From a virus, in IMG/VR virus record IMGVR_UViG_3300049482_000052, positions 1 to 26,720 of that record: a stretch of 26,720 bases of DNA, one strand, 5' to 3'. Under the pieces are notes generated by a model, which searched no databases, was not told where the DNA came from, and saw nothing but the letters and a program-made list of their open reading frames with translations. Shown in pieces: positions 980 to 12,558 of the stretch (the stretch's first letter is position 1; every line of letters starts with the position of its first letter). The translations under genes and the position numbers were made by a program.

Positions 980-1004
980 CGTCTTCCTCTCTCTCTCTGG
1001 AAAA

Positions 1005-1020
1005 TAGTTCAATGGAACTT
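1005..1020. promoter_or_regulatory. 16-bp dyad element, copy 1
   Basis: TAGTTC-AATG-GAACTT is one of seven copies of an AAGTTC-N4-GAACTT inverted repeat. It touches the stop codon of the gene at 1019-1306 and lies just upstream of the ribosome site of the AAA+ ATPase gene. It could bind a dimeric regulator or fold as a 5-6-bp RNA hairpin. Confidence 0.55.
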
Positions 1021-1306
1021 ACTGCGGTTCATCCGTCAGCTTGTTGATGACTTGTTCGGTGATGACCCAGTCGCCGTACCGCGATGTGAAGCCGTCACCG
1101 TGGATGATCTCGGTTCCCGGCTCTGCAAGTGCGTTCAAGAGACGCGTTGCGAGGTCTTCATGCAGCCCGGTCATGACAAGTGTCTGGGTATTGGTGTCGC
1201 TGTTGATCCACAGCGTGATCGTGGTGGTGTTTGCGTCGTACAGTTCCACCTCGATCCGGCTGACGTTCTCAAGGACAAGGGTGTCCGGTTGGTCTTTTTC
1301 GGACAT
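1019..1306 (-). CDS. hypothetical protein, 95 aa
   Basis: The protein starts MSEKDQPDTLVLENVSRIEV. The ATG at 1306 is chosen because AGAGGAGA lies six bases upstream; a longer frame to 1372 lacks a ribosome site and would swallow the upstream hairpin. The sequence is acidic, predicted mostly beta in the first half (VELYDANTTTITLWI) and ends in a short helix. It has no membrane segment or catalytic motif that I recognise. It follows the hairpin at 1333-1357 and precedes the AAA+ ATPase gene. Confidence 0.7.
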   Translation of the reverse strand: MSEKDQPDTLVLENVSRIEVELYDANTTTITLWINSDTNTQTLVMTGLHEDLATRLLNALAEPGTEIIHGDGFTSRYGDWVITEQVINKLTDEPQ

Positions 1307-1332
1307 TTCTGTCTCCTCTGGCGCATGGTATG

Positions 1333-1357
1333 GCAGACCATCGGGGTGATGGTCTGC
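1333..1357 (-). promoter_or_regulatory. intergenic hairpin of the stop-hairpin-RBS cassette
   Basis: GCAGACCATC and GATGGTCTGC form a perfect 10-bp stem with a 5-base loop. It lies between the stop at 1369 and the ribosome site of the 1306 start. There is no U-run after it, so it looks more like an mRNA stability or processing element than a classical terminator. Confidence 0.65.
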
Positions 1358-1368
1358 GCAGCGATGCG

Positions 1369-1494
1369 TCACTGATCGTTGCTCTCTGCCCAGCAGGTGA
1401 GTTCATCACCGCACTTGTCAAAGCCATAGCCAAGAAGCATGAAGGCCCCCAGCGTAATCCATAGGGCAAGAAGCCCAAGAATATCCCGGATCAT
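1369..1494 (-). CDS. small single-pass membrane protein, 41 aa
   Basis: Translation gives MIRDILGLLALWITLGAFML, then LGYGFDKCGDELTCWAESNDQ and a stop. Residues 4-24 form one hydrophobic membrane segment. The tail is acidic and holds two cysteines (28 and 34) that could pair outside the membrane. The start overlaps the upstream stop as ATGA, which indicates translational coupling. The size and layout recall tiny phage membrane proteins such as Rz-like or superinfection-exclusion peptides, but nothing fixes the role. Confidence 0.6.
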   Translation of the reverse strand: MIRDILGLLALWITLGAFMLLGYGFDKCGDELTCWAESNDQ

Positions 1495-1682
1495 GCTACG
1501 CCCCCTTCAATCCCAAGGTCGCCGATCTGGGAAGTTGTCCACACCGTCTCTGCTTGGATGACGTAGCAGTGCCGACCAGTTGCTCGGTGAAAGGCGACTG
1601 CCGTTTCCTTGGCCGAAGACAGAGTTCGGATGGGGACGCTGATCTTGTCACCCGTGTCGGTGGCGAACACAAAATAAATCAT
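1491..1682 (-). CDS. hypothetical protein, 63 aa
   Basis: The protein begins MIYFVFATDTGDKISVPIRT. The ATG at 1682 overlaps the upstream stop as ATGA, and its own stop overlaps the next start in the same way, so three genes are coupled in a row. An alternating beta and helix pattern (IYFVFATD, then SSAKETAVAFHRATG) suggests a compact folded domain. I do not recognise the family. Confidence 0.68.
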   Translation of the reverse strand: MIYFVFATDTGDKISVPIRTLSSAKETAVAFHRATGRHCYVIQAETVWTTSQIGDLGIEGGVA

Positions 1683-1879
1683 GCCCGTGCCTCGCACTGC
1701 CCGGCTTCGATCAAGGCGGCACAGGTGCGCCCGACGTGACCCTGAAGCTGCCATGCCACACCCGTGTCGATGAGGTGCTGGCAGGCCAAGATGAAGTTCT
1801 CCTCGCAGGGTTCTGCGTCCACGAGGTCCCACGCTCCGTCAAGGATCATGGCGGCGTCAAAGGTTGTCATCTGCGTCAT
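1679..1879 (-). CDS. hypothetical protein, 66 aa
   Basis: The protein starts MTQMTTFDAAMILDGAWDLV and is rich in helices, Cys and acidic residues, with four cysteines (at about 25, 32, 53 and 62). These are not spaced as a standard zinc finger. The ATG at 1879 follows the upstream TGA by one base, so translation is probably coupled; the upstream GGGG is only a weak ribosome site. An inner ATG at 1870 is the alternative start. Function unknown. Confidence 0.62.
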   Translation of the reverse strand: MTQMTTFDAAMILDGAWDLVDAEPCEENFILACQHLIDTGVAWQLQGHVGRTCAALIEAGQCEARA

Positions 1880-1880
1880 G

Positions 1881-2141
1881 TCAGTACCCCAGTTCTGCGA
1901 GAAGTTCGCTGGCATCAGATATCAGCCCCTCGGGGACTGCGCGGGTTCGGATGTTGGATGCGCTGGTTTCGACCGGGCGGTTGGCACGAAGCACGATGCG
2001 CAAAAGAGCCTCGCCAAGGCGCTGCTCTGCCTCGGTGCGGGGTGACCCTGCCGGAGCGGGCTGAAGGGCCTCCTGCGCCTTCGTTGATGCCTCTACGGGC
2101 ATGATGAAGGGTGGGGGTATGCGACGACTGGTAAGGAACAT
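1881..2141 (-). CDS. hypothetical protein, 86 aa
   Basis: The protein begins MFLTSRRIPPPFIMPVEAST and has a Pro/Ala-rich first third. An amphipathic helix follows (EAEQRLGEALLRIVLRAN), then a leucine-rich C-terminus. The start at 2141 is supported by GAGGA about nine bases upstream and by a TGATG overlap with the small basic gene before it. No known domain seen. Confidence 0.58.
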   Translation of the reverse strand: MFLTSRRIPPPFIMPVEASTKAQEALQPAPAGSPRTEAEQRLGEALLRIVLRANRPVETSASNIRTRAVPEGLISDASELLAELGY

Positions 2142-2278
2142 CAGTTCTTTCCTCTGTGCTTGGCCTTGCGTGGCAAAACCTTCTTGCGGTTGGGGATGAT
2201 CTTCAGGCGCAGCGCGCCAGCAGACTTGAGGTGTGACGCAGGGTCACGCGGTTTCGGGACCAAGGTAGCCTCCTGCAT
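2141..2278 (-). CDS. small very basic protein, 45 aa
   Basis: The frame encodes MQEATLVPKPRDPASHLKSA followed by a Lys/Arg-rich half (RLKIIPNRKKVLPRKAKHRGKN). It overlaps the end of the preceding gene by 35 bases, and its stop overlaps the next start as TGATG. The layout, an RDP motif then KK-x3-RK-x-KH, recalls the C-terminal part of the ribosome-rescue factor ArfA and a common class of small phage basic proteins. That likeness is from memory and weak. It could equally be a nucleic-acid-binding peptide. The ribosome site is poor, which lowers confidence. Confidence 0.45.
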   Translation of the reverse strand: MQEATLVPKPRDPASHLKSAGALRLKIIPNRKKVLPRKAKHRGKN

Positions 2279-2591
2279 TTGCCCACGCTTCGACGCGCGA
2301 CACGCTGCGGTAGCAGTCGCTGGGGGCGTAGTTGTAAAAGAACTTGATCAGTCGTTCCATGTTGGCGATGGAAATCTGATCTGCTCGACCGTAGGCACCG
2401 AACAGGTCGTTCGAAAGGACGGCGGTCAGGAAGTGGCCCGGCGCGATGCCCTGCAGGATGTAGCGGGCGATGGCACCTTGCAGATTGTGCGGAAGAAGTC
2501 CCAGTGCAGGACCCCAATCAGGGAATACTTCACTGTAGGCGGTGACGTACTGCCCTTGGTTCATCAGGGCGATAATGTATCCACGGTCCAT
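2244..2591 (-). CDS. hypothetical protein, 115 aa
   Basis: The protein starts MDRGYIIALMNQGQYVTAYS. The ATG at 2591 is preferred over an in-frame ATG at 2606 because GAGAGGA lies just before it. It is mostly helical with many aromatics (LIKFFYNYAPSDCY) and has no signal peptide or catalytic motif. The upstream gene for the HEIAH protein ends 11 bases before this start, so the two are in one operon. Function unknown. Confidence 0.72.
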   Translation of the reverse strand: MDRGYIIALMNQGQYVTAYSEVFPDWGPALGLLPHNLQGAIARYILQGIAPGHFLTAVLSNDLFGAYGRADQISIANMERLIKFFYNYAPSDCYRSVSRVEAWANAGGYLGPETA

Positions 2592-2602
2592 GGTGGTTCC
2601 TC

Positions 2603-2932
2603 TCATGAGTTGCGGTGATCACTTGCCCATCCGTTGCAGTGGGCAATCTCGTGCCGCAGGATATCTGCGACTGGCGCGCGGTGCGTCTTGGTGGCCAGAT
2701 AGATCGTGCAGGCTTCGTCACCCACTTGGGCACACCCTGCCACGTCTTCGCGAACGTCCTGCCGCCCCATGTCGGAACACTGCAACCAGACATCCGGCTT
2801 GTTGATCCGGTGAACTATCAGGGCACCGGCATAGGGGTGGTCGTACTGTGCTGGCGGATCAAGCGGCGTCCCGCCACTGGCCTGCCCTGACATCATCAGG
2901 AAAAGCGCAGCAAAAGCAGATGCGCGGTTCAT
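2603..2932 (-). CDS. exported small zinc-metallopeptidase-like protein, 109 aa
   Basis: The ATG at 2932 has AGAGGAGA six bases upstream. Residues 1-20 (MNRASAFAALFLMMSGQASG) look like a signal peptide, with AXA-like cleavage near residue 18-20. HEIAH at 94-98, followed by CNGW, is the HExxH zinc motif of zincin peptidases; the third ligand may be the later Asp103 or His104. Cys52, Cys67, Cys75 and Cys99 could form disulfides after export. The protein is much shorter than usual peptidases. A periplasmic role, for example in envelope modification, is inferred only from the signal peptide and motif. Confidence 0.72.
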   Translation of the reverse strand: MNRASAFAALFLMMSGQASGGTPLDPPAQYDHPYAGALIVHRINKPDVWLQCSDMGRQDVREDVAGCAQVGDEACTIYLATKTHRAPVADILRHEIAHCNGWASDHRNS

Positions 2933-2957
2933 TGGTCTCTCCTCTGGCACACAGTGA

Positions 2958-2977
2958 CAGGCCCCTTGCGAGGCCTG
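2958..2977 (-). promoter_or_regulatory. intergenic hairpin with GCAA tetraloop
   Basis: The minus-strand RNA folds as CAGGCCUC-GCAA-GGGGCCUG. That is an 8-bp stem with one U-G pair and a GNRA tetraloop. It lies between the stop at 3002 and the AGAGGAGA before 2932. Confidence 0.68.
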
Positions 2978-3001
2978 CTGCAGTGGGTCAGTTCTTGGGG
3001 G

Positions 3002-3358
3002 TCAGGCGGCTTCCATCACCTTGGCGTCAGCCACGCGGGCCTTCGCTGCGAAGCGCAGGGACGGTGCGCCGGTCTTCAGGACGCGCTTCAGGGCTGCCGG
3101 GGTCAGCATCTTGCGCAAGAGGTCCATGTTCACGGACGTCTTTCCGTCGCACTGGCTGATGGTCACGCGGGCGATCTGGCCCTCGATCTCGATCATGCCG
3201 TCCACGAAGGACAGGCCCGAAGACAGCATGATTGCCTTCAAGTTCTTTTCCTTCACGGCCAGTTCGGACTGCGCCGCCTTCAGGGCCATGAACGCATCGG
3301 CTGCGTTCTGCGCACCGACAAGCATCGCTGCGGTCATCGCCTTGGTCTGTTTTGCCAT
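3002..3358 (-). CDS. conserved-looking phage protein, 118 aa
   Basis: Two ATGs stand in tandem (3361 and 3358). The second gives the six-base gap to AGGAG seen in neighbouring genes, so MAKQTKAMTAAMLVGAQNAA is taken as the start. Residues 10-50 form a long Ala/Lys/Glu-rich helix, probably a coiled coil. A beta region follows (MIEIEGQIARVTISQCDGKTS), then a basic helical tail (LRKMLTPAALKRVLKT). A nucleic-acid-associated or dimeric role is possible but unproven. Confidence 0.72.
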   Translation of the reverse strand: MAKQTKAMTAAMLVGAQNAADAFMALKAAQSELAVKEKNLKAIMLSSGLSFVDGMIEIEGQIARVTISQCDGKTSVNMDLLRKMLTPAALKRVLKTGAPSLRFAAKARVADAKVMEAA

Positions 3359-3385
3359 CATTCTCTCCTCTTCTGGCACATGCAC

Positions 3386-3426
3386 CTGCATGGGATGCCA
3401 CCCCTCATGGGGTGGTCACCGATACA
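3386..3426 (-). repeat. 41-bp hairpin repeat, copy 1
   Basis: This stretch is the same as 6075-6115 at 36 of 41 positions, and all five differences are adjacent, in the loop. The stem is CCACCCC/GGGGTGG with loop TCAT on the plus strand. It sits between the stop at 3485 and the ribosome site before 3358. A second small hairpin (GACCT...AGGTC, 3433-3448) lies beside it. Confidence 0.72.
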
Positions 3427-3484
3427 CGGCGCGACCTTGTTTCAGGTCAAGCTATTCGCTGGCGTTGCTCCGGATCAGGGCATG

Positions 3485-3808
3485 TCAGGCCCACTGCAGA
3501 CCTTCTTCCTCCATGGCTGCCTTCATTCTGTCCAGCGGGATGCCGGGCAGTTCCCGAATGAAGCATTCGGGTTCGTGGTAGACCGAACGGAAGGCCACAT
3601 CGACGCCACGCGCTTTCGCGGCTTCGACAAAGACGGCAGCGTCACAGTCTTCTTCAAGGTAGAAGATCACGTCAAAGCCGGGCTGCCCGCAGTACGAATA
3701 CCCGGACAGCTTGGCCAGACTGGCACCGACACCCAGAAAGGTCTTCAGCGGGACTTCCAGCCAGCCATGGCCGGGGTCCTGATGGTAGTTCACGGTCAGT
3801 TGTTTCAT
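3485..3808 (-). CDS. conserved phage/plasmid hypothetical protein, 107 aa
   Basis: The protein starts MKQLTVNYHQDPGHGWLEVP at 3808, with GAGGAG five bases upstream. The YHQDPGHGWLEVP opening and a later YLEEDCDAA match a small protein family I remember from phages and plasmids of proteobacteria. It has no assigned activity. The mix of beta strands and a central helix suggests an alpha/beta fold. It is 11 bases downstream of the 3820-4026 gene and probably co-translated. Confidence 0.75.
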   Translation of the reverse strand: MKQLTVNYHQDPGHGWLEVPLKTFLGVGASLAKLSGYSYCGQPGFDVIFYLEEDCDAAVFVEAAKARGVDVAFRSVYHEPECFIRELPGIPLDRMKAAMEEEGLQWA

Positions 3809-3819
3809 GTGTTCTCCTC

Positions 3820-4026
3820 TCACCATATTGCGTGGTCCTGCCACGTCCACTGACTGGGCGTGACGGGGTCGATGTCAGCGGCAAAGATGACCGTATCGCG
3901 GGCGGGGTCGATGTCGCCCCACATGCGATGGTCGTGCCACTTATGGATGAAGTCAGGCTTGCCCCAGACCTTCTGGGCGCGGACGAAAGCGTCGTCCTTG
4001 AAGCCGACGAAATGGACATGGCCCAT
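3820..4026 (-). CDS. conserved phage hypothetical protein, 68 aa
   Basis: The protein begins MGHVHFVGFKDDAFVRAQKV and continues WGKPDFIHKWHDHRMWGDI. GAGGAG six bases before the ATG at 4026 sets the start. It has six histidines and six tryptophans in 68 residues, which is unusual and could bind metal, but no known site is clear. The general pattern (HFVGF, PDFIH, DTVIFA) resembles small phage proteins found near replication or host-takeover genes. Function unknown. Confidence 0.72.
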   Translation of the reverse strand: MGHVHFVGFKDDAFVRAQKVWGKPDFIHKWHDHRMWGDIDPARDTVIFAADIDPVTPSQWTWQDHAIW

Positions 4027-4050
4027 GGTCGTCTCCTCTCTTGGAATGTG

Positions 4051-4115
4051 TACCCCCGGCAGGTGTCGAACCTGCGCGCCCCGTTCTCACGCACGGGGCT
4101 GACCCTCTCGGGGGC
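4051..4115 (-). tRNA. tRNA-like element lacking a D arm (possible relic or attachment core)
   Basis: On the minus strand, GCCCCCG (4115-4109) pairs over seven bases with CGGGGGT (4058-4052), with A at 4051 as discriminator. A perfect T arm GCAGG-TTCGACA-CCTGC spans 4075-4059. A CCCCG/CGGGG stem at 4098-4079 takes the anticodon-arm place, but its loop is 10 bases (TGCGTGAGAA). Only about ten bases lie where a D arm should be, so the whole is 65 nt. CCA is not encoded. It may be a degenerate tRNA, a tRNA mimic, or the 3' half of a tRNA kept as an attachment core. The identity is open; GAG is the best anticodon guess. Confidence 0.4.
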
Positions 4116-4164
4116 CGGGATCATCACCGTGAGGCTTCCTGATCCCTTGGATGGCAGCGAACAA

Positions 4165-4180
4165 AAGTTCACTTGCACTT
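4165..4180. promoter_or_regulatory. 16-bp dyad element, copy 2
   Basis: AAGTTC-ACTT-GCACTT matches the shared dyad with one mismatch in the right arm. It lies upstream, on the minus strand, of the tRNA-like element and of the 4026-3002 gene group. Confidence 0.5.
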
Positions 4181-4337
4181 TTCAGGATCATGCATGCCCG
4201 CCTATGGGCGGCAGGGCTTCCTCGCCTTCCCCCTCCACGCTGCAGGCGCTTCGACAGGGTCGGGTCCAGTGTACCCATGCGTCCATGGGGTTTCCCGGCG
4301 ATCAACCGGGTGCATGATCCAGAGAAAAGCAAGAGAT

Positions 4338-4361
4338 GGGCAGCCCCCGAAGGGGCCACCC
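4338..4361 (-). promoter_or_regulatory. hairpin with UUCG tetraloop after the 4370 gene
   Basis: The minus-strand RNA has GCCCC-UUCG-GGGGC, a C(UUCG)G tetraloop, with an outer GGG/CCC extension past a 2x2 mismatch. It starts eight bases after the stop and is followed by a pyrimidine-rich CTCTTGCTTTTC. It could act as a weak terminator. Confidence 0.68.
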
Positions 4362-4369
4362 GTTGATGG

Positions 4370-5029
4370 TCAGGCGACTTCCATCTTGTCCATGACCTCA
4401 CCGAACTCGGCGTTCTGGGCCGCGATCTTCGCTTCGGCCATCGCGGCGGCATCCTGCGAAGCGGCGCGGGCCGCCTTCAGTTCCCGGACGATGTTTTCGA
4501 AGCGTTCGAAGTCGGCTTCAACGAAGTCGGTGGGCTTGAACACGCCCTGCACCCGTTCACCCGCCTCATTCTTGCGCGTGGTGAAGCGACCGACCAACTT
4601 CTCGGCCAAGGCGCGCAGGCTGTCCTTTTCGTCTTCGCCCGACACCCGCTTGGCCAACTGGTTCTCGCTCTTGACGTTTTCGCTCGCCAAGATGTCGGCG
4701 ACCAAGGACGGGGTGGCCTGCGTCGGGATGTTGAACTCGCGCAGCGCACCGACCGAGTTTTCAAGGTATCGCTTGGCGGTAGCCTCTTTCAGACCGGCGT
4801 TTTCCAGAAGGCCCTTGCGGACCTGATTGGAAACGGCGCGCGGCAGGTTGCCCTTGATCAGCTTGTTGCTGGCCAGCGCGGCAATCAGGACCGAGTAGGC
4901 AGCGACCTTGCGTTCGTTCGCAGCTTCGCTGTTCTCTTTGGCCGTGCCCTTGAATGCGGTGATGGACTTCTCGGCGGCGTTGATCTCGGCGAAGACGTTC
5001 AGGTCGATGGTCGGGGCTTGGTTGGTCAT
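4370..5029 (-). CDS. hypothetical helical protein, 219 aa
   Basis: The largest complete gene of the left block starts MTNQAPTIDLNVFAEINAAE. AAAGGA about seven bases before the ATG supports the start. It is almost all helix, rich in Ala, Lys, Glu and Asn. A central part (LIKGNLPRAVSNQVRKGLLE) looks like a small DNA-binding helical bundle. Its C-terminal 50 residues (FERFENIVRELKAARAASQD) look like a coiled coil. No Walker or nuclease motif is present. A structural DNA-binding role is a guess from composition. Confidence 0.8.
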   Translation of the reverse strand: MTNQAPTIDLNVFAEINAAEKSITAFKGTAKENSEAANERKVAAYSVLIAALASNKLIKGNLPRAVSNQVRKGLLENAGLKEATAKRYLENSVGALREFNIPTQATPSLVADILASENVKSENQLAKRVSGEDEKDSLRALAEKLVGRFTTRKNEAGERVQGVFKPTDFVEADFERFENIVRELKAARAASQDAAAMAEAKIAAQNAEFGEVMDKMEVA

Positions 5030-5088
5030 GGAAAGTTCCTTTCAAAGTGAAGCACTTGTTTCCGGCTGCGGCTTCTGAGCATGGTGAT

Positions 5089-5108
5089 GCAGGCCCCGTG
5101 GGGTCTGC
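5089..5108 (-). promoter_or_regulatory. intergenic hairpin
   Basis: The minus-strand RNA pairs GCAG-A-CCC with GGG-C-CUGC around a CACG loop, with one A/C mismatch. It stands between the stop at 5119 and the start at 5029. Confidence 0.55.
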
Positions 5109-5118
5109 ACTGCGATGG

Positions 5119-5319
5119 TCAGGCGGCGTGGATGGTGACGGCTTCTCTCAAGGCCAGATCACGGACCCAGATGACCGGCACCCCGGTCATGTCGGCGACG
5201 GTCTCACACAGGCCTTTGGCCCGGTTCAGGAACATGTCGGACATGCACCCATCGGGCTGTTCAAGCCACTGCGCGAAGTTTTGCGCGGCTGCATCACACA
5301 GACTGGAGGGGTCAAGCAT
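5119..5319 (-). CDS. hypothetical protein, 66 aa
   Basis: The protein begins MLDPSSLCDAAAQNFAQWLE. The ATG at 5319 overlaps the stop of the upstream small membrane-protein gene as TGATG, with AAGGA nine bases upstream. An in-frame GTG just before it (5322) is possible. It is helical with a Cys8 and Cys26 pair and a hydrophobic stretch (MTGVPVIWVRDLAL) too short and polar for a membrane segment. Function unknown. Confidence 0.65.
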   Translation of the reverse strand: MLDPSSLCDAAAQNFAQWLEQPDGCMSDMFLNRAKGLCETVADMTGVPVIWVRDLALREAVTIHAA

Positions 5320-5432
5320 CACAGATAATCCTTCATGAAGGTTGCAAGGGCAGCGCAGGCAAGCAGCGCGAACAGGATGATCCAGCCGGGCGCATCGAAG
5401 GGCGCGGCGGTCATGGCAGGATGAAACGTCAT
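5319..5432 (-). CDS. small membrane protein, 37 aa
   Basis: The frame gives MTFHPAMTAAPFDAPGWIIL then FALLACAALATFMKDYL. Residues 16-33 form one membrane segment, with a short charged C-terminus. AGAGGAG lies seven bases before the ATG at 5432, and the stop overlaps the next start. It is preceded by the hairpin at 5459-5476. The role is unknown; tiny membrane peptides of phages can affect lysis or exclusion. Confidence 0.62.
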   Translation of the reverse strand: MTFHPAMTAAPFDAPGWIILFALLACAALATFMKDYL

Positions 5433-5458
5433 TTTCTCTCTCCTCTGGTCACCAGTGA

Positions 5459-5476
5459 TGCAGCATCTCTGCTGCA
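5459..5476 (-). promoter_or_regulatory. intergenic hairpin
   Basis: TGCAGC/GCTGCA form a 6-bp stem with a 6-base loop. GTCACCAGTGA lies between it and the ribosome site, a near-palindrome also seen at 5805-5816. Confidence 0.55.
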
Positions 5477-5486
5477 CTTCTTGTGA

Positions 5487-5789
5487 TCAGTACGGCGTCA
5501 GACGAAAGTTCGCCGCTTTTATGGCAGCCGTCTGGTCAGCGAAGGCGTGGACCCAAGTTGCACCGGGGGCGATCTCGATACCGGCCCAGACGTCATCGAC
5601 TTTGCCGCTTGCGAAGGTCATCTCGACTTTCACGACATACATGGCGCGGTCACCGATGGTGCCGACATGCAGGACGCGGGGCAGGCCTTCCGGGGCATTC
5701 ACGCGCACCCCAAGCTTGGCGAGACGCTGCACGGCTTCGGTGGTGATGGTGCCGTAGCCCATGCCTGCGTGGTTCATGGTCAGGTTCAT
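5487..5789 (-). CDS. hypothetical protein, 100 aa
   Basis: The protein starts MNLTMNHAGMGYGTITTEAV, with AGAGGAGGA before the ATG at 5789. A short N-terminal helix (EAVQRLAKLGVRV) is followed by several beta strands (VLHVGTIGDRAMYVVKVEMT). I see no catalytic motif or membrane segment. It is bounded on both sides by cassette hairpins and so is a single-gene unit of the operon. Function unknown. Confidence 0.74.
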   Translation of the reverse strand: MNLTMNHAGMGYGTITTEAVQRLAKLGVRVNAPEGLPRVLHVGTIGDRAMYVVKVEMTFASGKVDDVWAGIEIAPGATWVHAFADQTAAIKAANFRLTPY

Positions 5790-5814
5790 TGGTTCCTCCT
5801 CTGGTCACTGGTGA

Positions 5815-5832
5815 CAGGCCCCGGAGGGCCTG
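5815..5832 (-). promoter_or_regulatory. intergenic hairpin with UCCG tetraloop
   Basis: The minus-strand RNA folds as CAGGCCC-UCCG-GGGCCUG, a perfect 7-bp stem closed by C(UCCG)G. The perfect palindrome GTCAC-TG-GTGAC (5805-5816) overlaps its edge. Confidence 0.7.
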
Positions 5833-5842
5833 CTGCAAGGGA

Positions 5843-6058
5843 TCAGAACGCTTCCGCCATCACGCTGCCCCTCTGCTCTGCAAGCAGGAGGACAACCTCG
5901 TGGCAATTCTGGATGGCGGTGGCCTTGTTTTCGGCACCTTCGATGTAGTCGGCGATGTCTTCGTCCGACCAGCACTCGACAAGGTAGTCCCAGCCATCTT
6001 TGTTGTAGTACCGCATGGCATGCGCCCGCACGGCGTCGATCAGGTATTGTTCGGCCAT
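5843..6058 (-). CDS. hypothetical protein, 71 aa
   Basis: The protein begins MAEQYLIDAVRAHAMRYYNK and continues DGWDYLVECWSDEDIADYIE. It is acidic and mainly helical. AGAGGAGA seven bases before the ATG at 6058 fixes the start. Two cysteines and four tyrosines are present, with no recognised motif. The sequence pattern is that of a small soluble phage accessory protein. Confidence 0.73.
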   Translation of the reverse strand: MAEQYLIDAVRAHAMRYYNKDGWDYLVECWSDEDIADYIEGAENKATAIQNCHEVVLLLAEQRGSVMAEAF

Positions 6059-6074
6059 TTCAGTCTCTCCTCTG

Positions 6075-6115
6075 CTGCATGGGATGCCACCCCCGTGAGG
6101 GTGGTCACCGATACA
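6075..6115 (-). repeat. 41-bp hairpin repeat, copy 2
   Basis: This is the second copy of the element at 3386-3426. Both 5' and 3' flanks of the loop are identical (19 and 17 bases), while all five bases between differ. The stem is CCACCC/GGGTGG. It starts directly after the stop codon at 6116. Confidence 0.74.
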
Positions 6116-6430
6116 TCAGTCTGGCCGACTGGCTGCATGGGCATCATAGCCGCAGTCCCGCAGCGCCTTGGCATAGGCACGGGCACCCACTTCATGGATG
6201 TCCATCGACTGACCATGATATTTGCCGGGCGACCACACTTGCCACCCTTTTTTCCAGTGCTTGTCGCCGACACCCATGGCCTTCATCTGCTTGACAAGGG
6301 GGCTGCGACCGTCCGGGATTTCCACCCAAGCGAAGCCACAGTAAGCGCCTTCGCCACGCTGGGAAAGGGCGATATCCTGCGCCGAAGAAGCGGCGGCTTG
6401 GGCATTGTTGATCACGTCACGAAGGTCCAT
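6116..6430 (-). CDS. conserved phage hypothetical protein, 104 aa
   Basis: The protein starts MDLRDVINNAQAAASSAQDI and carries GFAWVEIPDGRSPLVKQMKA and a WQVWSPGKYHGQSMDIHEVG segment. I remember this order, GFAWV then a K-rich helix, W..W, then SMDIHE and a final Ala-rich helix, from small phage proteins of unknown role found in many phage families. The ATG at 6430 has AGAGGAGA five bases upstream. The basic middle and the conserved His and Glu could bind nucleic acid or metal, but that is speculation. Confidence 0.77.
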   Translation of the reverse strand: MDLRDVINNAQAAASSAQDIALSQRGEGAYCGFAWVEIPDGRSPLVKQMKAMGVGDKHWKKGWQVWSPGKYHGQSMDIHEVGARAYAKALRDCGYDAHAASRPD

Positions 6431-6456
6431 TTTTCTCTCCTCTGAACTTGTGGATA

Positions 6457-6470
6457 CGGCCCGTAGGCCG
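6457..6470 (-). promoter_or_regulatory. intergenic hairpin with UACG tetraloop
   Basis: The minus-strand RNA is CGGCC-UACG-GGCCG, a 5-bp GC stem capped by C(UACG)G. It lies between the 17-residue gene and the ribosome site of the 6430 start. Confidence 0.65.
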
Positions 6471-6482
6471 CACTGCAGAAGG

Positions 6483-6536
6483 TCAGATCAGAAACACTGC
6501 ACCCAAGAGGGCGACAAGAAGAAGCATGGTGATCAT
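6483..6536 (-). CDS. 17-residue hydrophobic micropeptide
   Basis: A minus-strand frame reads MITMLLLVALLGAVFLI and stops. AAAGGAAAACACC lies just before the ATG at 6536. The cassette architecture supports it as a real gene: tetraloop hairpins lie on both sides (6573-6590 upstream, 6457-6470 downstream) at the usual distances. The whole peptide is one short membrane helix with no charged residue. It could be a toxin-like, lytic or partner-binding membrane peptide. Its size makes the call uncertain. Confidence 0.45.
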   Translation of the reverse strand: MITMLLLVALLGAVFLI

Positions 6537-6572
6537 GGTGTTTTCCTTTGGTTGACTGTCTGAAGCTATGAA

Positions 6573-6590
6573 TGCAGCCCGTAGGCTGCA
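6573..6590 (-). promoter_or_regulatory. intergenic hairpin with UACG tetraloop
   Basis: The minus-strand RNA is UGCAGCC-UACG-GGCUGCA, a perfect 7-bp stem with a C(UACG)G loop. It lies after the 6601 stop and before the micropeptide gene. Confidence 0.7.
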
Positions 6591-6600
6591 CAGCAAAGGT

Positions 6601-6762
6601 TCAGGCCCAAACCCAGACAAGGTTGGTTGCCACGGCCATCACGGTGGCATGCGGTGCCATCTCTGGCCAGATCAGCGCCATGGTGGAAGAGGTGACGCAG
6701 CCAATGGTGATGAAAACCTTGACGCCTTCCCGCTTTCCCACATGGATGCGGTGTATCTGCAT
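6601..6762 (-). CDS. small membrane protein, 53 aa
   Basis: Translation from the ATG at 6762 gives MQIHRIHVGKREGVKVFITI then GCVTSSTMALIWPEMAPHAT and a final VMAVATNLVWVWA. The N-terminus is basic. Two hydrophobic stretches (14-32 and 40-53) could form a hairpin in the membrane. The GAGGAG ribosome site overlaps the Glu-Glu-stop end of the upstream gene, so translation is coupled. The layout resembles small phage holin-like or exclusion proteins, without a family match. Confidence 0.62.
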   Translation of the reverse strand: MQIHRIHVGKREGVKVFITIGCVTSSTMALIWPEMAPHATVMAVATNLVWVWA

Positions 6763-6766
6763 TGCG

Positions 6767-6949
6767 CTACTCCTCGATCAGGAAGTTGAACAGGACAACC
6801 AGCCCCAAGACACCACCAATCATGGCATAGAAGCCGTGACCCTCGATGAACAGGACCGAGCAGTAGGCGGCGTGAACAACGGTCTCGCTCTTGTGCGAAA
6901 CCTTCGCCAGCTTTTCGTGCTGTGCGACGTATTGGTGAATACGCTTCAT
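6767..6949 (-). CDS. small membrane protein, 60 aa; first gene of the left operon
   Basis: The protein starts MKRIHQYVAQHEKLAKVSHK. The ATG at 6949 is preferred because AAGGAGG lies just upstream; the longer frame to 6973 has none. A soluble basic helix (1-25) precedes hydrophobic residues 26-57 (AAYCSVLFIEGHGFYAMIGG then VLGLVVLFNFLIEE), which fit one or two membrane passes. It heads the minus-strand operon, 60 bases after a dyad element and just after the hairpin at 6979-7002. Confidence 0.7.
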   Translation of the reverse strand: MKRIHQYVAQHEKLAKVSHKSETVVHAAYCSVLFIEGHGFYAMIGGVLGLVVLFNFLIEE

Positions 6950-6978
6950 TCTTTCCCTCCTTGATTGAACCACCAGAA

Positions 6979-7024: not shown

Positions 7025-7562
7025 AACCGCGCCGCCACACAGCGACACGGTGAGTGCATCATTCTTTTCGGGGTTGGTCTGGCGTGTCTCTCTGGTCCTG
7101 CATGTGTCTCACGACAGGCGCAGCCATATCCTGATCACAGCCAGTCCATTGCCCCTTGATGTGAGGGTTGCCGTTAGGTTTCCTCCGAGGAGCGTCTCAC
7201 CCTACCGCATCTCTGCTCGGGCTGGGGCCATGATGACCGGGTGTCCCTGAAAGGCTGGACGGTGGGCGAGACAAAGAGCGCGGGGGCAAGGCCCCCTGCC
7301 GAACCCTAGAACGTCTGGGCCGGTCCGATATGTATGGGCCTTTGTCTGATACCTTGTCAAGGGGGTTCCAAGCCACCTTTCTTCTGTCTGAGACGATTAT
7401 TCCCTTAACGGGCCTTAATGTGTCTTTCATGTCACAGTCTGGGACCGCGACCCGAGTGAAGCGACGGCCTGTCTCGACAAGTTCAATGGCACTTATCTGC
7501 CTTGTGGTGTACGATCAGGTCCACATCCTGCCATGGTGGCAGTGCAGCGAAGGGTGGGCACG
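7025..7562. other. divergent intergenic control region
   Basis: About 540 bases between the diverging gene blocks hold no gene that I can support. Visible structures are a GGGGGC-AAG-GCCCCC hairpin (7282-7296), the near-palindrome TTAACGGGCCTTAA (7404-7417) and a dyad element (7479-7494). Promoters for both directions are expected here, but I cannot place a -10/-35 pair with confidence. Confidence 0.55.
7479..7494. promoter_or_regulatory. 16-bp dyad element, copy 4
   Basis: AAGTTC-AATG-GCACTT has one mismatch to the consensus and lies about 70 bases upstream of the small terminase gene. TACGAT follows 15 bases after its right arm; the copy at 19524 has TACACT at the same distance, which could be a -10 box. 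Confidence 0.55.
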
Positions 7563-8318
7563 ATGGACAAGACAGAGACACCGAAGCGCAAGGGTGGCAG
7601 GCCCTTTGGGTCCAAGGGTCAGGTCAGTCTGAGACTGGTACCAAAGACTGGCATGCAGCCTGCCATTGCGGCCAAGGTGAAGTCTGGTCTTGGTGAGGCG
7701 ATCAGTGGGTCTGCCAAGCTTGGTGAGTGGTCTGATTCTCTGTCTGATCATGACGCATCCAGCCCTCGTCGGTCTGGTGCTGTGTCTGATACCACCGCGC
7801 CCGGACCCGAGAAGGCAAGGCCTTCGACTAACACCGGGTTGCCTAAGAACAGTAAGGGAGTGAAGACGAAAGAAAGATCAGGGATCATCCCTCATCTTGG
7901 TATCACGACCAAACAAGAAGCTTTCTGTCAGGCAGTCACAAGTGGCAAGTCATTGGCAGATGCGTATCGGTCAGCCTACGTCACTGACAACATGACAGAT
8001 AACACCCTCCATCATCTGGCCTGTCGGCTATTCGCTGACCCAAAGATCAGGGGACGCCTCCAGTCTATCAACGTGGAGATGGAAGGGAACCGGCGCATGA
8101 TGGCCGCTTCTGACGTCGCTTTGGGCCTCCGTGTGCTGCGTGAACTGGCCGAAAGTGCAGACAGTGACGCTGCCCGTATCCGTGCTGCCGAACTACTGGC
8201 TAAGGTGGGAGGTGCCTTTGTCGAACAGGTTGATATCACTGACAAAAGGGACAGATCACCCGAAGAGATCGAGACTGCGATTAAGGCCAAGCTTGCACGT
8301 CTGGGTCTGGCGTCCTGA
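7563..8318 (+). CDS. terS: terminase small subunit
   Basis: The 251-residue protein starts MDKTETPKRKGGRPFGSKGQ; the ATG at 7563 follows AAGGGTGGG, whereas the in-frame ATG at 7533 has no ribosome site. The N-terminus has an AT-hook-like KRKGGRPFG. Residues 31-110 are a low-complexity linker. Residues 117-165 (KQEAFCQAVTSGKSLADAYR then SAYVTDNM and FADPKIRGRL) match the helix-turn-helix of small terminases. The C-terminal helix region (185-220) fits the oligomerisation domain. The protein binds phage DNA at the packaging site and recruits the large subunit, here encoded 1.8 kb downstream, which is unusually far. Confidence 0.85.
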   Translation: MDKTETPKRKGGRPFGSKGQVSLRLVPKTGMQPAIAAKVKSGLGEAISGSAKLGEWSDSLSDHDASSPRRSGAVSDTTAPGPEKARPSTNTGLPKNSKGVKTKERSGIIPHLGITTKQEAFCQAVTSGKSLADAYRSAYVTDNMTDNTLHHLACRLFADPKIRGRLQSINVEMEGNRRMMAASDVALGLRVLRELAESADSDAARIRAAELLAKVGGAFVEQVDITDKRDRSPEEIETAIKAKLARLGLAS

Positions 8319-8352
8319 TCACCGTCTGACACACCATCGACACACCACATCT

Positions 8353-8381
8353 TGTGCCCTGACCGTCATGGTTGGGGCACA
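8353..8381 (+). terminator. hairpin after the small terminase gene
   Basis: TGTGCCC pairs with GGGCACA, with a further ACC/GGT pair around GTCAT. It begins 34 bases after the stop. No U-run follows, so termination is uncertain. Confidence 0.35.
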
Positions 8382-8815
8382 GTCATGCTAACCCATTGGT
8401 ATCATGTGATATCAGACAGGACATAATGTGGGTTATGCGCCTTCTTCTACCTGAGGTAGCAGAGCATGGCGTTGCGCCTCGGCCTGTCACCTCCGGGAAA
8501 ACACCCCCCTCCCCCTCGGTTATCCATGCGATGCCACCGTACAGGCGTCAGGAGGTCCGCCAGATGGCCGTTGTGGGTGTATCGGCTAGGGTACCCGCCT
8601 AGAACAGGCAAGGCCACTGTACGGCCTGATTTGACGGCCTAGCGCACGGGGTCGATCTGGAGGTGCATCCCCGGTACCCCACGGGGGGGGTATGCCCCCC
8701 TATGAGCGGCCCCCTCCCCATGAGCCAGTATACTATTCCCCACGTTCTCTCACCATATATTTTGACTAAAATACCTAAAAATCCCACTATATGACCCTCT
8801 TTACAACCTTTAGTC

Positions 8816-8852
8816 GAGTACACCCTCCTAGAGTACACAACTATAGGGTGTA
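8816..8852. repeat. nested direct and inverted repeats in AT-rich block
   Basis: GAGTACAC occurs at 8816-8823 and 8831-8838 (15-base period). TACACCCT (8819-8826) is repeated inverted as AGGGTGTA (8845-8852). Confidence 0.5.
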
Positions 8853-8934
8853 TTCTGTCTGATACTGTACCTGTTTGTGCCTGAAATCCGTGTGAAGATG
8901 ATATGGTCAGCTTCTTTCCACCCTCACCGACGAA

Positions 8935-8950
8935 AAGTTCTATCGAACCT
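8935..8950. promoter_or_regulatory. 16-bp dyad element, copy 5
   Basis: AAGTTC-TATC-GAACCT has one mismatch to the consensus and lies about 120 bases upstream of the Gly/Met-rich protein gene. Confidence 0.5.
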
Positions 8951-9071
8951 TTCCTCGCCGACGCTGGAAAGAACCCGACACAGCGATGGTTTTGCCAATG
9001 GTGTCTGTTCTTGGCCTTTTGCTGCCATTGGTGTAGTCTTCCTGCAGAAAATCCATCGTTGGAGAGATGAA

Positions 9072-9677
9072 ATGGCACAATCGGGGATCATGCAGAGGCT
9101 TGCTGGTGGTGGAGGGTCTTCTCAGGCTGCTCCTGTGCAGAGGGCACCGATGAGTTCACCCTTGCAGGGGCTGAAGTCGTTCCTGATGGGGGACAAGGGA
9201 TGGCAGCCGGGTCAGGGGACGTCGTTTGCGCAGCATGCACAGATGCAGGCAGCCCCTCAGGCGCAGGCTCCGGACATGGCGGCACTGGCAAAGATCATCC
9301 GGGAAGGAACGCCGGAGCAGAAGGCAGCCGCGATGACCCAACTCAGGGCAGCGACGGGCAGTGTCGGGATGGCGATGGGGGGTCCTGTCGCAGGCAAGGA
9401 CATGGGACAGCCTGCCGGTGGTGGAATGCCCATGGGTCCCGAGAGCATGAGTGGGATCATGGGATTGATGAAGGGTGGTCAGGGCGGTGGGATGAGTGGT
9501 CTGATGTCTCTGCTCCAGAAGCGGGGTGGAGGTATGCCGGTGAACTTCGGTAGTCACACGGGTCCCGTGATGCAGAAGCCCGGAGGTGGCATGGGAATTC
9601 CGACCAACATGGGTCCGGGAAGTGGTCTCGCCCCCGTAGGATACCCGATGCAGCCGGGAAGGATGCCGTATCGGTGA
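9072..9677 (+). CDS. Gly/Met/Pro-rich low-complexity protein, 201 aa
   Basis: The protein starts MAQSGIMQRLAGGGGSSQAA. GGAG seven bases before the ATG at 9072 decides against the longer frame to 8877. A short ordered segment (about 70-95, MAALAKIIREGTPEQKAAAM) stands in otherwise disordered sequence. The C-terminal half is rich in Gly and Met (GGGMPMGPESMSGIMGLMKG). This composition is known in some virion or inner-capsid proteins and in flexible linkers. Its place between the terminase genes suggests a packaging or virion role, but I do not recognise a family. A terminator follows at 9766. Confidence 0.72.
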   Translation: MAQSGIMQRLAGGGGSSQAAPVQRAPMSSPLQGLKSFLMGDKGWQPGQGTSFAQHAQMQAAPQAQAPDMAALAKIIREGTPEQKAAAMTQLRAATGSVGMAMGGPVAGKDMGQPAGGGMPMGPESMSGIMGLMKGGQGGGMSGLMSLLQKRGGGMPVNFGSHTGPVMQKPGGGMGIPTNMGPGSGLAPVGYPMQPGRMPYR

Positions 9678-9740
9678 TCAGCCGGTATAAGGCACCCGCG
9701 CGGTAAGGATTACTGACTACGCGCGCACTAACGTTACTCA

Positions 9741-9863
9741 TATCCGTAATACCCTTATCCGTATAAAGACACCCTAATGGGTGTCTTATTATACATACTT
9801 GTTCTTTCTTTCTTACTTCCTTTCTTCTTCTTCTTCTTCTTACGGATAATCCGTATACGGATA
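9741..9863. repeat. five copies of TATCCGTA in both orientations
   Basis: TATCCGTA is at 9741 and 9756 on the plus strand. TACGGATA is at 9841 and 9856, with AATCCGTA at 9848 between them. The last group includes the 14-base palindrome ATCCGTATACGGAT (9849-9862). The copies flank a terminator and a polypyrimidine tract. The arrangement is iteron-like or operator-like. Confidence 0.6.
9766..9787 (+). terminator. rho-independent terminator-like hairpin
   Basis: AAGACACCC-TAAT-GGGTGTCTT is a perfect 9-bp stem with a 4-base loop, followed by a T-rich tail (ATTATACATACTTGTTC). It lies about 90 bases after the Gly/Met-rich gene. Confidence 0.7.
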
Positions 9864-9885
9864 AGATATAAAAAAAAGACATACA

Positions 9886-9957
9886 CCTCTTAGTATAACA
9901 CAGGAGTCTCTTCTAGTAGTACCCTCTTAGTATAACATGAATAGTCTTCTGTAGTAC
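9886..9957. repeat. two tandem units of about 36 bp
   Basis: The 15-mer CCTCTTAGTATAACA is exact at 9886-9900 and 9923-9937. Each copy is followed by a related AGTCT-CTTCT-GTAGTAC tail, giving units of 37 and 35 bases. Confidence 0.65.
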
Positions 9958-9996
9958 AAGAGTAGTAAGTAAGAGTAGTAAGTAAGAGAAGTAAGT
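9958..9996. repeat. three tandem 13-bp repeats
   Basis: AAGAGTAGTAAGT occurs twice in a row, and a third copy has one change (AAGAGAAGTAAGT). They follow directly on the 36-bp units. Confidence 0.7.
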
Positions 9997-10000
9997 AAGA

Positions 10001-10033
10001 CGCGCGCGAGGCGTATACGTGCGCGCACACGCG
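10001..10033. other. alternating purine-pyrimidine tract, possible Z-DNA
   Basis: CGCGCGCGA is followed after one break by 23 bases (10011-10033) of unbroken purine-pyrimidine alternation. Inside are the palindromes CGTATACG and GTGCGCGCAC. Such tracts can adopt left-handed DNA under supercoiling. Confidence 0.6.
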
Positions 10034-10069
10034 AGGGCAGCAAAAAACACTTGTTGCGGAGATGGAACC

Positions 10070-10123
10070 ATGGCAGAAAAAGGATGCGTCCACATGGACT
10101 GCGACCTCCCTCAACTGACCTGA
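10070..10123 (+). CDS. possible 17-residue leader peptide ahead of the large terminase
   Basis: A frame reads MAEKGCVHMDCDLPQLT and stops. GGAG lies eight bases upstream, and the stop overlaps the first arm of the hairpin at 10117-10143. The setting, a short peptide running into a hairpin before a major gene, resembles a leader peptide. It may also be chance. Confidence 0.25.
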   Translation: MAEKGCVHMDCDLPQLT

Positions 10124-10143
10124 CGTTCCAGTAGCGTCAGGTC
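10117..10143 (+). terminator. hairpin just upstream of the large terminase
   Basis: GACCTGACG and CGTCAGGTC pair perfectly over 9 bp around a 9-base loop, followed by TTCTT. It ends 15 bases before the large terminase ATG. It may be a terminator, an attenuator or a structure controlling the ribosome site. Confidence 0.5.
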
Positions 10144-10158
10144 TTCTTACAGGTAGAG

Positions 10159-12558
10159 ATGCTCAAGAACTTCGACATCATGAGAGCATTGAAGACCATG
10201 CCCTCACATGAGCGTGAACAGCTTCTCAAGGACCTTGAGGCTCTCGATGACGCGAGGACACGCAAAGAAGCGCAATTGAACTTCTTGCCGTTCGTGAAGG
10301 CGATGTGGCCTGCCTTCATCGAAGGACGCCATCACAAGATCATGGCAGAAGCCCTCGATGATGTCGCTTCAGGCAAACTCAAGCGTCTGATCATCAACCT
10401 CGGACCACGCCACACGAAGAGTGAATTTGGCAGTTTCCTGTTCCCGGCATGGTTCATGGGCAGATTTCCGGACAAGAAGATTATCCAAGCCTCCAACACC
10501 GGAGAACTGGCAGTCGGCTTTGGTCGAAAGGTCAAGAACCTCATCGACACCGAAGACTACCAGAACATCTTCCCCGGAACCAAGCTTGCCGCTGACGCAA
10601 AGGCAGCGGGACGGTGGGCGACGACCAAGCGAGGTGAGTACTTCGCCATCGGTGTCGGCGGTACTGTCACCGGCAAGGGCGCAGACGTCCTTGTGATTGA
10701 CGACCCTCACTCCGAACAACAGGCAAAACTGGCAGAGAGCAATCCGGAAATCTACGACGGTGTTTATGACTGGTACACCTCCGGCCCCCGTCAACGTCTT
10801 CAGCCCGGTGGTGCCATAATCGTCATCATGTGCATGACCGGAGACACCGACGTCCTCATGGGCAACGGCATCACCCGGAAGTTGCGCGATGTTCGAAAGG
10901 GTGATCTTGTCGCCACCTACGAGGATGGCCGCATCACCACGGCCAAGGTCACAAACTGGCAGTCAAACGGCGTTGACGCAGTATTGAAAGTTCAAACGCA
11001 ATCTGGCAGGATCATCCGCGCAAACGCGAGGCACCCGTTCCTCGTGGACCGAGATGGAGCCATATCATGGGTGAGACTGTCGGAACTGCAACCGGGCATG
11101 GAACTTGTCTCACTGAAGGGTGTGGGCGACCAACCAAGGCAAAGTTCAAGCCCGGACTATGCGGAGCCTGTCAGGCAAGGGCATCCTACCACCGCAAACA
11201 CCCAGACGCCCCATACCGGGAACTCGGCTTCCACGGAAAGTGGAGAGGGCAGGGATGCGCTTGCGGAAATCCTGTCCATGCTAAGGGTCTGTGCAGGGTC
11301 TGCTACCAGCGACAGTACACGCCTCCAGCCGAAACGCCGGAAAAGCGCCGGGGTCGCCGCATCAAGAACCGCTACGGCATCACCCTTGAGCAGTATCAGG
11401 CCATGGTCGTGGAGCGTGGTGGACGGTGTGATGTCTGTGGCGAACTACCTTCTCGGCAGAACACCCGTGCCCATTGGGGTGGCAAACTGTGCATTGATCA
11501 CGACCATGAGACCGGAAAGGTCAGAGGGCTTCTCTGCAACGACTGCAACCTTGCAGTCGGGTACGGCAGAACGGCAGGCAACCTCATCCGTGCGGCTGGA
11601 TACCTGCAGCGTCACGCTGGACCCGATCCTCTCGATCCAGCCTGATGGCGAGGAGGAGGTCTTCGACGTCGAGATCGACCGGACGGAGAACTTCATCGCC
11701 AACGGCGTCGTCAGCCACAACACCCGCTGGTCCAAGCGCGACCTGACAGGGCAGATCATCAAGCGATCCACCCAGAGAATTGGCAGTGATGAATGGACGG
11801 TGATAGAACTTCCCGCCATCATGCCATCAGGACTGCCGCTCTGGCCCGAGTTCTGGTCTCTCGAAGAACTGATGGCGACAAAGGTCGAGATCGGGATTTC
11901 GAAGTGGAACTCCCAGTACATGCAGACCCCCACCGCCGACGAGGGTGCCCTCATCAAGCGTGACTGGTGGAAGCAATGGCAGAAGGTTGATCCCCCGAAG
12001 TGCGAAGCAGTGATCCAGTCATGGGACACCGCCTTCGAGAAAACACAAAGGGCAGACTACTCTGCCTGCACCACATGGGGGGTGTTCTACTGGCCTGACG
12101 ATGAAGGCAAGAGCAGGCCGAACGTTATCCTTCTGGATGCTTACAGGGCAAAGCTTGAGTTCCCCGAACTGAAAAAGAAGGCACAGGAGAAGTACCGGGA
12201 GTTCGAGCCAGACCAGCTTATCATTGAGAAGAAGGCATCTGGTGCCCCGCTGATCTACGAACTTCAAGCTATGGGATTGCCTGTGACGGCCTTCACTCCG
12301 ACCCGTGGCAACGACAAGATCGCCCGTGTCAACGCCGTCTCCGACTTGTTCTCTTCCGGTGTGATCTGGTACCCGGACAAGTTGTGGGCAGACGAGGTCA
12401 TCGAAGAATGTGCCTCATTCCCCGCAGGTGACCATGATGACTTTGTGGACAGCGTCAGTATGGCCCTCATACGCTTCAGGCAGGGTGGATGGATCAGGAT
12501 AGACAGTGATGAAGAAGACGACAAAGACCGGGATCATGCACCTGTCGAGTACTACTGA
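10159..12558 (+). CDS. terL: terminase large subunit interrupted by an intein
   Basis: The 799-residue precursor splices to about 502 residues, a normal length for this ATPase-nuclease. ATPase motifs: Walker A variant GPRHTKS (82-88) and Walker B VLVIDD (177-182). The coupling motif IVIM|TRW is split by the intein after residue 224. The RNase H-like nuclease shows D623 (QSWDTAF), E690 (LIIEKKASG) and D760-D761 (HDDFVDSVSMAL). The protein pumps DNA into the prohead and cuts it. The ATG at 10159 has AGGTAG five bases upstream. A 9-bp hairpin lies just before it. Splicing must occur for ATPase activity, because the insertion breaks the motif. Confidence 0.93.
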   Translation: MLKNFDIMRALKTMPSHEREQLLKDLEALDDARTRKEAQLNFLPFVKAMWPAFIEGRHHKIMAEALDDVASGKLKRLIINLGPRHTKSEFGSFLFPAWFMGRFPDKKIIQASNTGELAVGFGRKVKNLIDTEDYQNIFPGTKLAADAKAAGRWATTKRGEYFAIGVGGTVTGKGADVLVIDDPHSEQQAKLAESNPEIYDGVYDWYTSGPRQRLQPGGAIIVIMCMTGDTDVLMGNGITRKLRDVRKGDLVATYEDGRITTAKVTNWQSNGVDAVLKVQTQSGRIIRANARHPFLVDRDGAISWVRLSELQPGMELVSLKGVGDQPRQSSSPDYAEPVRQGHPTTANTQTPHTGNSASTESGEGRDALAEILSMLRVCAGSATSDSTRLQPKRRKSAGVAASRTATASPLSSIRPWSWSVVDGVMSVANYLLGRTPVPIGVANCALITTMRPERSEGFSATTATLQSGTAERQATSSVRLDTCSVTLDPILSIQPDGEEEVFDVEIDRTENFIANGVVSHNTRWSKRDLTGQIIKRSTQRIGSDEWTVIELPAIMPSGLPLWPEFWSLEELMATKVEIGISKWNSQYMQTPTADEGALIKRDWWKQWQKVDPPKCEAVIQSWDTAFEKTQRADYSACTTWGVFYWPDDEGKSRPNVILLDAYRAKLEFPELKKKAQEKYREFEPDQLIIEKKASGAPLIYELQAMGLPVTAFTPTRGNDKIARVNAVSDLFSSGVIWYPDKLWADEVIEECASFPAGDHDDFVDSVSMALIRFRQGGWIRIDSDEEDDKDRDHAPVEYY
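10831..11721 (+). mobile_element. TerL intein (297 aa) with out-of-frame nested endonuclease
   Basis: The intein runs from Cys225 of the precursor to Asn521, before Thr522. Block A starts CMTGDTDVLMGNGITRKLRD. Block B is GRIIRANARHPFLV, with its His. Block F is EEVFDVEIDRTENFIANGV and block G is VVSHN, followed by Thr. All splicing residues (Cys1, block B His, penultimate His, terminal Asn, +1 Thr) are present, so it is predicted active. The removal site rebuilds IVIMTRWSKRDLTG, the conserved terminase motif. Between blocks B and F its own frame has no LAGLIDADG motifs. It reads as Ser/Thr/Pro/Arg-rich filler, because this DNA encodes the endonuclease in another frame. Confidence 0.92.
11067..11645 (+). 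CDS. nested HNH / endonuclease VII-type homing endonuclease, 192 aa
   Basis: This gene lies wholly inside the intein, in the -1 (+2) frame. The ATG at 11067 has GGAG seven bases upstream, and an in-frame TGA (10974) closes the frame further upstream. Two zinc-finger-like Cys clusters come first (C14, C19, C32, C35 and C64, C66, C76, C79). The endonuclease VII core then has CDVC (121-124), LCIDHDHETGKVRGLLCNDC (141-160) and N161. This beta-beta-alpha-metal core cuts DNA and is typical of free-standing phage homing endonucleases. It starts just after intein block B and ends at the base before block F begins. It is therefore the likely mobility enzyme for the intein. Confidence 0.9.
   Translation: MGETVGTATGHGTCLTEGCGRPTKAKFKPGLCGACQARASYHRKHPDAPYRELGFHGKWRGQGCACGNPVHAKGLCRVCYQRQYTPPAETPEKRRGRRIKNRYGITLEQYQAMVVERGGRCDVCGELPSRQNTRAHWGGKLCIDHDHETGKVRGLLCNDCNLAVGYGRTAGNLIRAAGYLQRHAGPDPLDPA

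Follow-up and report, generated by a model that had tools for sequence, protein, structure and literature searches.

What function is served by the 481 non-coding bases (positions 9678-10158) that separate a Gly/Met-rich open reading frame (ORF; stop at 9677) from the terminase gene terL (start at 10159) in a viral sequence of 26,720 nucleotides, the whole of which (IMG/VR record IMGVR_UViG_3300049482_000052) is referred to here as the window? An earlier note, made from the sequence alone, had drawn attention to a concentration of repeats at this place and had proposed either a replication origin or a packaging site. Comparison with related phages suggests that control of transcription is the most likely role, favoured over both of these proposals.

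Phage identity and gene context

The window represents part of the genome of an HTVC023P-like phage, with homologous TerL, portal, GroES and capsid proteins and a matching order of late genes that is closest to that of Planktothrix phage Pag-Yong1; it differs from the HTVC023P-type podoviruses (PMC9599517) in that its TerL carries an intein. These phages, described as widespread (PMC9599517), are the cultured relatives of the window together with Pag-Yong1 and phage DSL-LC04. The words intergenic, noncoding and promoter are absent from the HTVC023P-type paper searched (PMC9599517), the searched literature gave no account of a late control region or packaging site for phages of this type, and a literature search for the region or for a matching system returned nothing relevant. 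Viral relatives, with identities of up to 74%, were collected through TerL-based scans (their stretches bear L numbers below); scanning viral contigs with the portal protein and with TerS yielded none, and a TerL scan of bacterial genomes was set aside, its matches being mostly to the intein. Many viral relatives with a TerL of about 800 residues appear to carry an intein too.

Genes within 1-6973 of the window run leftward, among them one for an AAA ATPase (phrog_1297), and the late genes run rightward from terS on. Non-coding DNA (8319-9071), the Gly/Met-rich ORF, for which a search detected no relatives, and the repeat region follow each other from terS to terL. The earlier placement of the region between the terminase genes holds in that both flank it, but the genes are not strictly adjacent, the Gly/Met-rich ORF intervening. 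The features of the locus are as follows.

7533-8318, plus strand: terS (phrog_51; weak match to Terminase_2)
about 8710-8750, plus strand: probable copy, weakly scored, of an element linked to terS, with C-tract CCCCCTCCCC (8710-8719) and TATACTATTCCCCAC core
9072-9677, plus strand: Gly/Met-rich ORF, likely ATG start at 9072
9678-10158, plus strand: non-coding, putative control region 5' of terL (ORF map, repeat and GC analysis)
9741-9763, plus strand: left cluster, two direct TATCCGTA octamers with a spacing of 15 bp (repeat search)
9766-9787, strand not applicable: hairpin AAGACACCC-TAAT-GGGTGTCTT, -15.5 kcal/mol, without a T-tail (folding and terminator scan)
9802-9841, plus strand: pyrimidine tract, CTT/TTCT (repeat search)
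9841-9863, strand not applicable: right cluster TACGGATAATCCGTATACGGATA, overlapping palindromes including a perfect one of 14 bp (repeat search)
9886-9937, plus strand: two CCTCTTAGTATAACA repeats 37 bp apart, TAGTA-rich (repeat search)
9958-10000, plus strand: 13-bp tandem repeat AAGAGTAGTAAGT, 3.3 copies
about 10001-10031, strand not applicable: CG/CA-alternating tract (read from the sequence)
10070-10123, plus strand: possible 17-codon leader ORF MAEKGCVHMDCDLPQLT (read directly from the sequence; a lead only)
10117-10143, plus strand: hairpin GACCTGACG...CGTCAGGTC, -17.7 kcal/mol, immediately 5' of the terL ribosome-binding site
10159-12558, plus strand: terL with intein (Pfam Intein_splicing, PF14890, residues 251-521)

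The repeat region

Repeated 8-mer pairs number 57 in 9678-10158 compared with 5.0 in dinucleotide shuffles, none of 1000 of which reached 57, and the next-best count elsewhere in the window is 27, within the portal gene. No other part of the window is as dense in repeats, and the clustering lies far beyond chance. That nothing like it is seen elsewhere in the window, as the earlier note had it, is borne out for the repeats but not for AT-rich non-coding DNA, a second stretch of which is found at 8728-8875 (GC 0.385). The mostly AT-rich setting is confirmed by a GC content of 0.441 in the region and 0.341 in 9735-9960, compared with 0.587 for the whole window. A DNA similarity search of the region against cultured phages gave a single match, which was dismissed as chance, and gapless comparison of the non-coding DNA of the window with the closest relative (L169) gave nothing beyond chance.

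The word ATCCGTA occurs five times in the window, every copy lying inside the region. Five octamers in both orientations had been described; both orientations are present, and four copies are exact TATCCGTA octamers (9741 and 9756 on the plus strand, 9841 and 9856 on the minus strand; 0.12 expected), the fifth being the heptamer ATCCGTA only. This heptamer, at 9849 on the plus strand, pairs with the copy at 9856 to form the perfect palindrome ATCCGTATACGGAT (9849-9862). The polypyrimidine tract, the 13-bp tandem repeat, the CG-alternating sequence flagged as potential Z-DNA and the final hairpin were all recovered, and the supposed 36-bp tandem repeat exists in the form of two perfect 15-bp direct repeats, starting at 9886 and 9923. 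The proposed terminator was not recovered: the two strong hairpins (9766-9787 and 10117-10143) both have perfect 9-bp stems, but neither qualified in a T-tail terminator scan, the stems being present and the T-run absent.

Some of these elements have counterparts in relatives: the CCTCTTAGTATAACA repeats recall the TAGTATA array of L169, a CG run also occurs in L215, and GTGCGCG tracts are present in L003. The ORF at 10070-10123, which has a plausible ribosome site and a stop that falls within the hairpin just before terL, may encode a leader peptide.

Word arrays in relatives and a probable control of late transcription

Many relatives with a TerL 50-74% identical have a non-coding terS-terL region that carries an array of words of 7-9 bp, the word differing by lineage: CAACTAG in L002-L004, CTAGGAA in L007, GTATATA in L169, CGTTAAA in L199, ACTAGTTATAACTAGT in L165, L172 and others, and GTCATAC in Pag-Yong1. 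The arrays within the terS-terL interval of L169 (eight copies), L199 (seven), L007 (nine), L002-L004 (seven), L165 and L172 beat all 200 shuffles, in statistics that were computed, like those for promoters below, after the sequences had been inspected. The words are nearly confined to this interval, which holds 7 of 7 copies in L003 (a locus of 10.4 kb) and 9 of 10 in L007. In L169, terS and terL are separated by 725 bp of non-coding DNA alone, without the Gly/Met-rich ORF, and this DNA contains a TAGTATA array and a promoter-like site. An array between terS and terL is lacking from many relatives whose two terminase genes abut, some of which have arrays further upstream; arrays adjoining leftward genes are found 2-3 kb before terL in L179, L227 and L234.

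Seven marine relatives share a ACTAGTTATAACTAGT array that is 90% identical among them, whereas identity falls to 54% in the non-coding DNA on its upstream side and to 64% in the neighbouring ORF; because it is conserved so far above its neighbours, the array is, as judged by this comparison, a selected site in these seven, a result that covers a word other than the ATCCGTA of the window. The occurrence of different words in a matching stretch points to a fast-changing binding site. The earlier suggestion that the region is functional and of a protein-binding type is strengthened by the matching arrays in relatives, the footprint in the seven and the statistical excess.

Sense sigma-70-like sites lie beside arrays in L169 (TTGACA-17-TATACT, p 0.005), L003 (TTGTCA-15-TAAAAT, p 0.01), L007 (TTGACA-17-TAAAGT, p 0.01) and L231 (p 0.04), and marginally in L182; the Fisher value of 1.9e-4 over 12 relatives is exploratory, the regions having been chosen after promoters had been seen in some. 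No sigma-70-like promoter was found in 9678-10158 of the window (p 0.965; none in a second scan), where the sigma-70 consensus may not be that of the host. The palindrome ATCCGTATACGGAT recurs in L261, part of an unrelated viral contig, as paired sites inside a TTGACA-18-TATTCT promoter.

Because promoter-like sites adjoin the arrays in relatives and ATCCGTATACGGAT lies inside the promoter of an unrelated virus, we favour, with moderate confidence, a reading in which 9678-10158 controls the rightward late operon (terL, portal, capsid) and its repeated words form an operator array. A dimeric DNA-binding regulator, probably encoded by the phage, would recognise the ATCCGTA half-sites and the palindrome as its operators and turn late transcription on or off; the right cluster (9841-9863) is proposed as the main operator, and the downstream repeats and the two hairpins would belong to the promoter-leader. 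Binding of a regulator at this place, its action on transcription and the position of the window's own promoter are what we infer from the relatives. An operator region for a dimeric regulator should contain repeated palindromic sites, and ATCCGTATACGGAT, its half-sites and the excess of repeat pairs (57 vs 5.0) fit this expectation; against palindromic operators, some arrays consist of direct repeats, such as the GTCATAC array of Pag-Yong1. Repressor-operator arrays (operators of the CI/Cro or LexA type) occur at phage promoters. The likeness to them lies in several short palindromes or half-sites by a promoter, and in the same 14-bp palindrome within the promoter of an unrelated contig; the differences are that the window has no recognisable promoter and that its array precedes a terminase gene rather than lying in an immunity region. 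The turnover of words between relatives resembles changed regulator specificity, and might account for immunity or incompatibility among phages of this kind.

The unrelated contig (3300047574_000004; L261 2993-3030, and L298) contains six ATCCGTATACGGAT palindromes, the paired ones overlapping the promoter, an arrangement that resembles a phage operator set, and L298, a neighbouring stretch of L261, carries a helix-turn-helix-like ORF. Phages with ATCCGTATACGGAT were considered as terminase relatives and rejected, only a weak TerL match being found in L296. Among possible regulators, no helix-turn-helix protein other than TerS was recognised in the window. L013 and L045 each carry a LexA-type winged-helix ORF that matches Pfam LexA_DNA_bind, and in L006 and L199 palindromes lie directly 5' of a small ORF of similar appearance, as judged by eye; small ORFs of this type occur near the 5' side of terL in many relatives (L005, L006, L013, L022, L045, L199, L207 and L214), as tested with Pfam for L013 and L045 and judged by eye for the rest. 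A conserved early protein of 219 residues (4370-5029, minus strand) has no family match; its homologues in the array-bearing L240, L241, L165 and L172, also encoded in the early region, are 26-50% identical. Considered as a candidate regulator, it gave a structure model of moderate quality and no informative match in a fold search.

A replication origin, in which an initiator would bind the words as iterons and the AT-rich part would serve as the unwinding zone, seems unlikely to us. P4 provides an example of an iteron-type phage or plasmid origin, and the likeness is one of anatomy: octamer-type words in both orientations, direct repeats included, adjoin AT-rich DNA (GC 0.34), and the corresponding place in L169 is occupied by a long TATA-rich tract. 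However, no initiator gene was recognised in the window, itself a fragment, which also shows no independent sign of a replication start; GC skew, computed for five complete relatives, either tracks the direction of the genes or is monotonic, and is uninformative, and the promoter-like sites beside the arrays fit transcription better. The anatomy allows the origin proposed by the earlier note, but nothing independent supports it.

Possible packaging and RNA-level roles, and the element beside terS

The other proposal, a packaging-initiation site at which the small terminase would bind the repeated words and TerL would cut nearby, is likewise improbable. The region does sit between terS and terL, its short words form two clusters around a central tract, and bent A-tract elements accompany it in relatives. 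The arrangement recalls the pac site of P1, where hexanucleotide clusters flank the cleavage zone, both systems having short repeated words in two clusters near a terminase gene. A pac or cos site, however, is expected to be a sequence-conserved site at or near terS, and the array word changes with each lineage; conservation among relatives is found instead in a separate element beside terS, which in the window falls at about 8710-8750, outside 9678-10158. In diverged relatives (L002-L004, L060, L061 and L063) an A-tract element near GCAAAAAATTTTTTGC, likely bent DNA, lies upstream of terL.

The separate element consists of a C-tract followed, 20-75 nt on, by about 26 bp (consensus TATACATACTAATCCGCACAAACAAT; also given as TATACATACTAATCCGCACAaaCAAT), and is present beside terS in about 60 relatives, on the terL strand, where it precedes terS, overlaps its 3' end or closely follows it (for example L003 3611-3636, and in L233, L218 and L182). 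The starts of six contigs fall no more than 45 nt before it, and that of L210 apparently inside it, contig starts being suggestive only. Because of its conservation in about 60 relatives and the six contigs that start near it, this element is a better candidate for the packaging site than 9678-10158; the copy in the window is weak (score 7.3, p 0.04 within 8319-9071). Each genome offers two testable targets: (i) the lineage-specific, operator-like array of the terS-terL interval, and (ii) the family-wide conserved element beside terS.

The two functions could also be joined, if the small terminase of the phage itself, or a co-evolving partner, bound the array, with one lineage-specific code that would both regulate the late operon and mark the DNA for packaging, the word changing fast to keep packaging phage-specific; we consider this quite unlikely. 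Control at the RNA level, in which the palindromes would fold into hairpins of the terL leader and act, together with a short leader peptide, by attenuation or by occlusion of the ribosome site, could draw on the stability of the hairpins (-15.5 and -17.7 kcal/mol), on the 17-codon ORF that ends in the last of them and on the palindromes of L003 that abut the terL ribosome site, but is very improbable given that copies of one word recur in both direct and inverted orientation, and within the Pag-Yong1 array in direct orientation alone, a reuse that RNA folding does not need, and that an Rfam search gave no match.

The Gly/Met-rich ORF has apparently been inserted between the element beside terS and the array. 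In L241 the terS-linked element is separated from a palindromic, AT-rich tract by a minus-strand gene, sulfotransferase-like by eye, at about 100-750 nt 3' of terS; because this gene and the Gly/Met-rich ORF of the window occupy corresponding positions, the spot between the element and the array seems to accept cargo genes.
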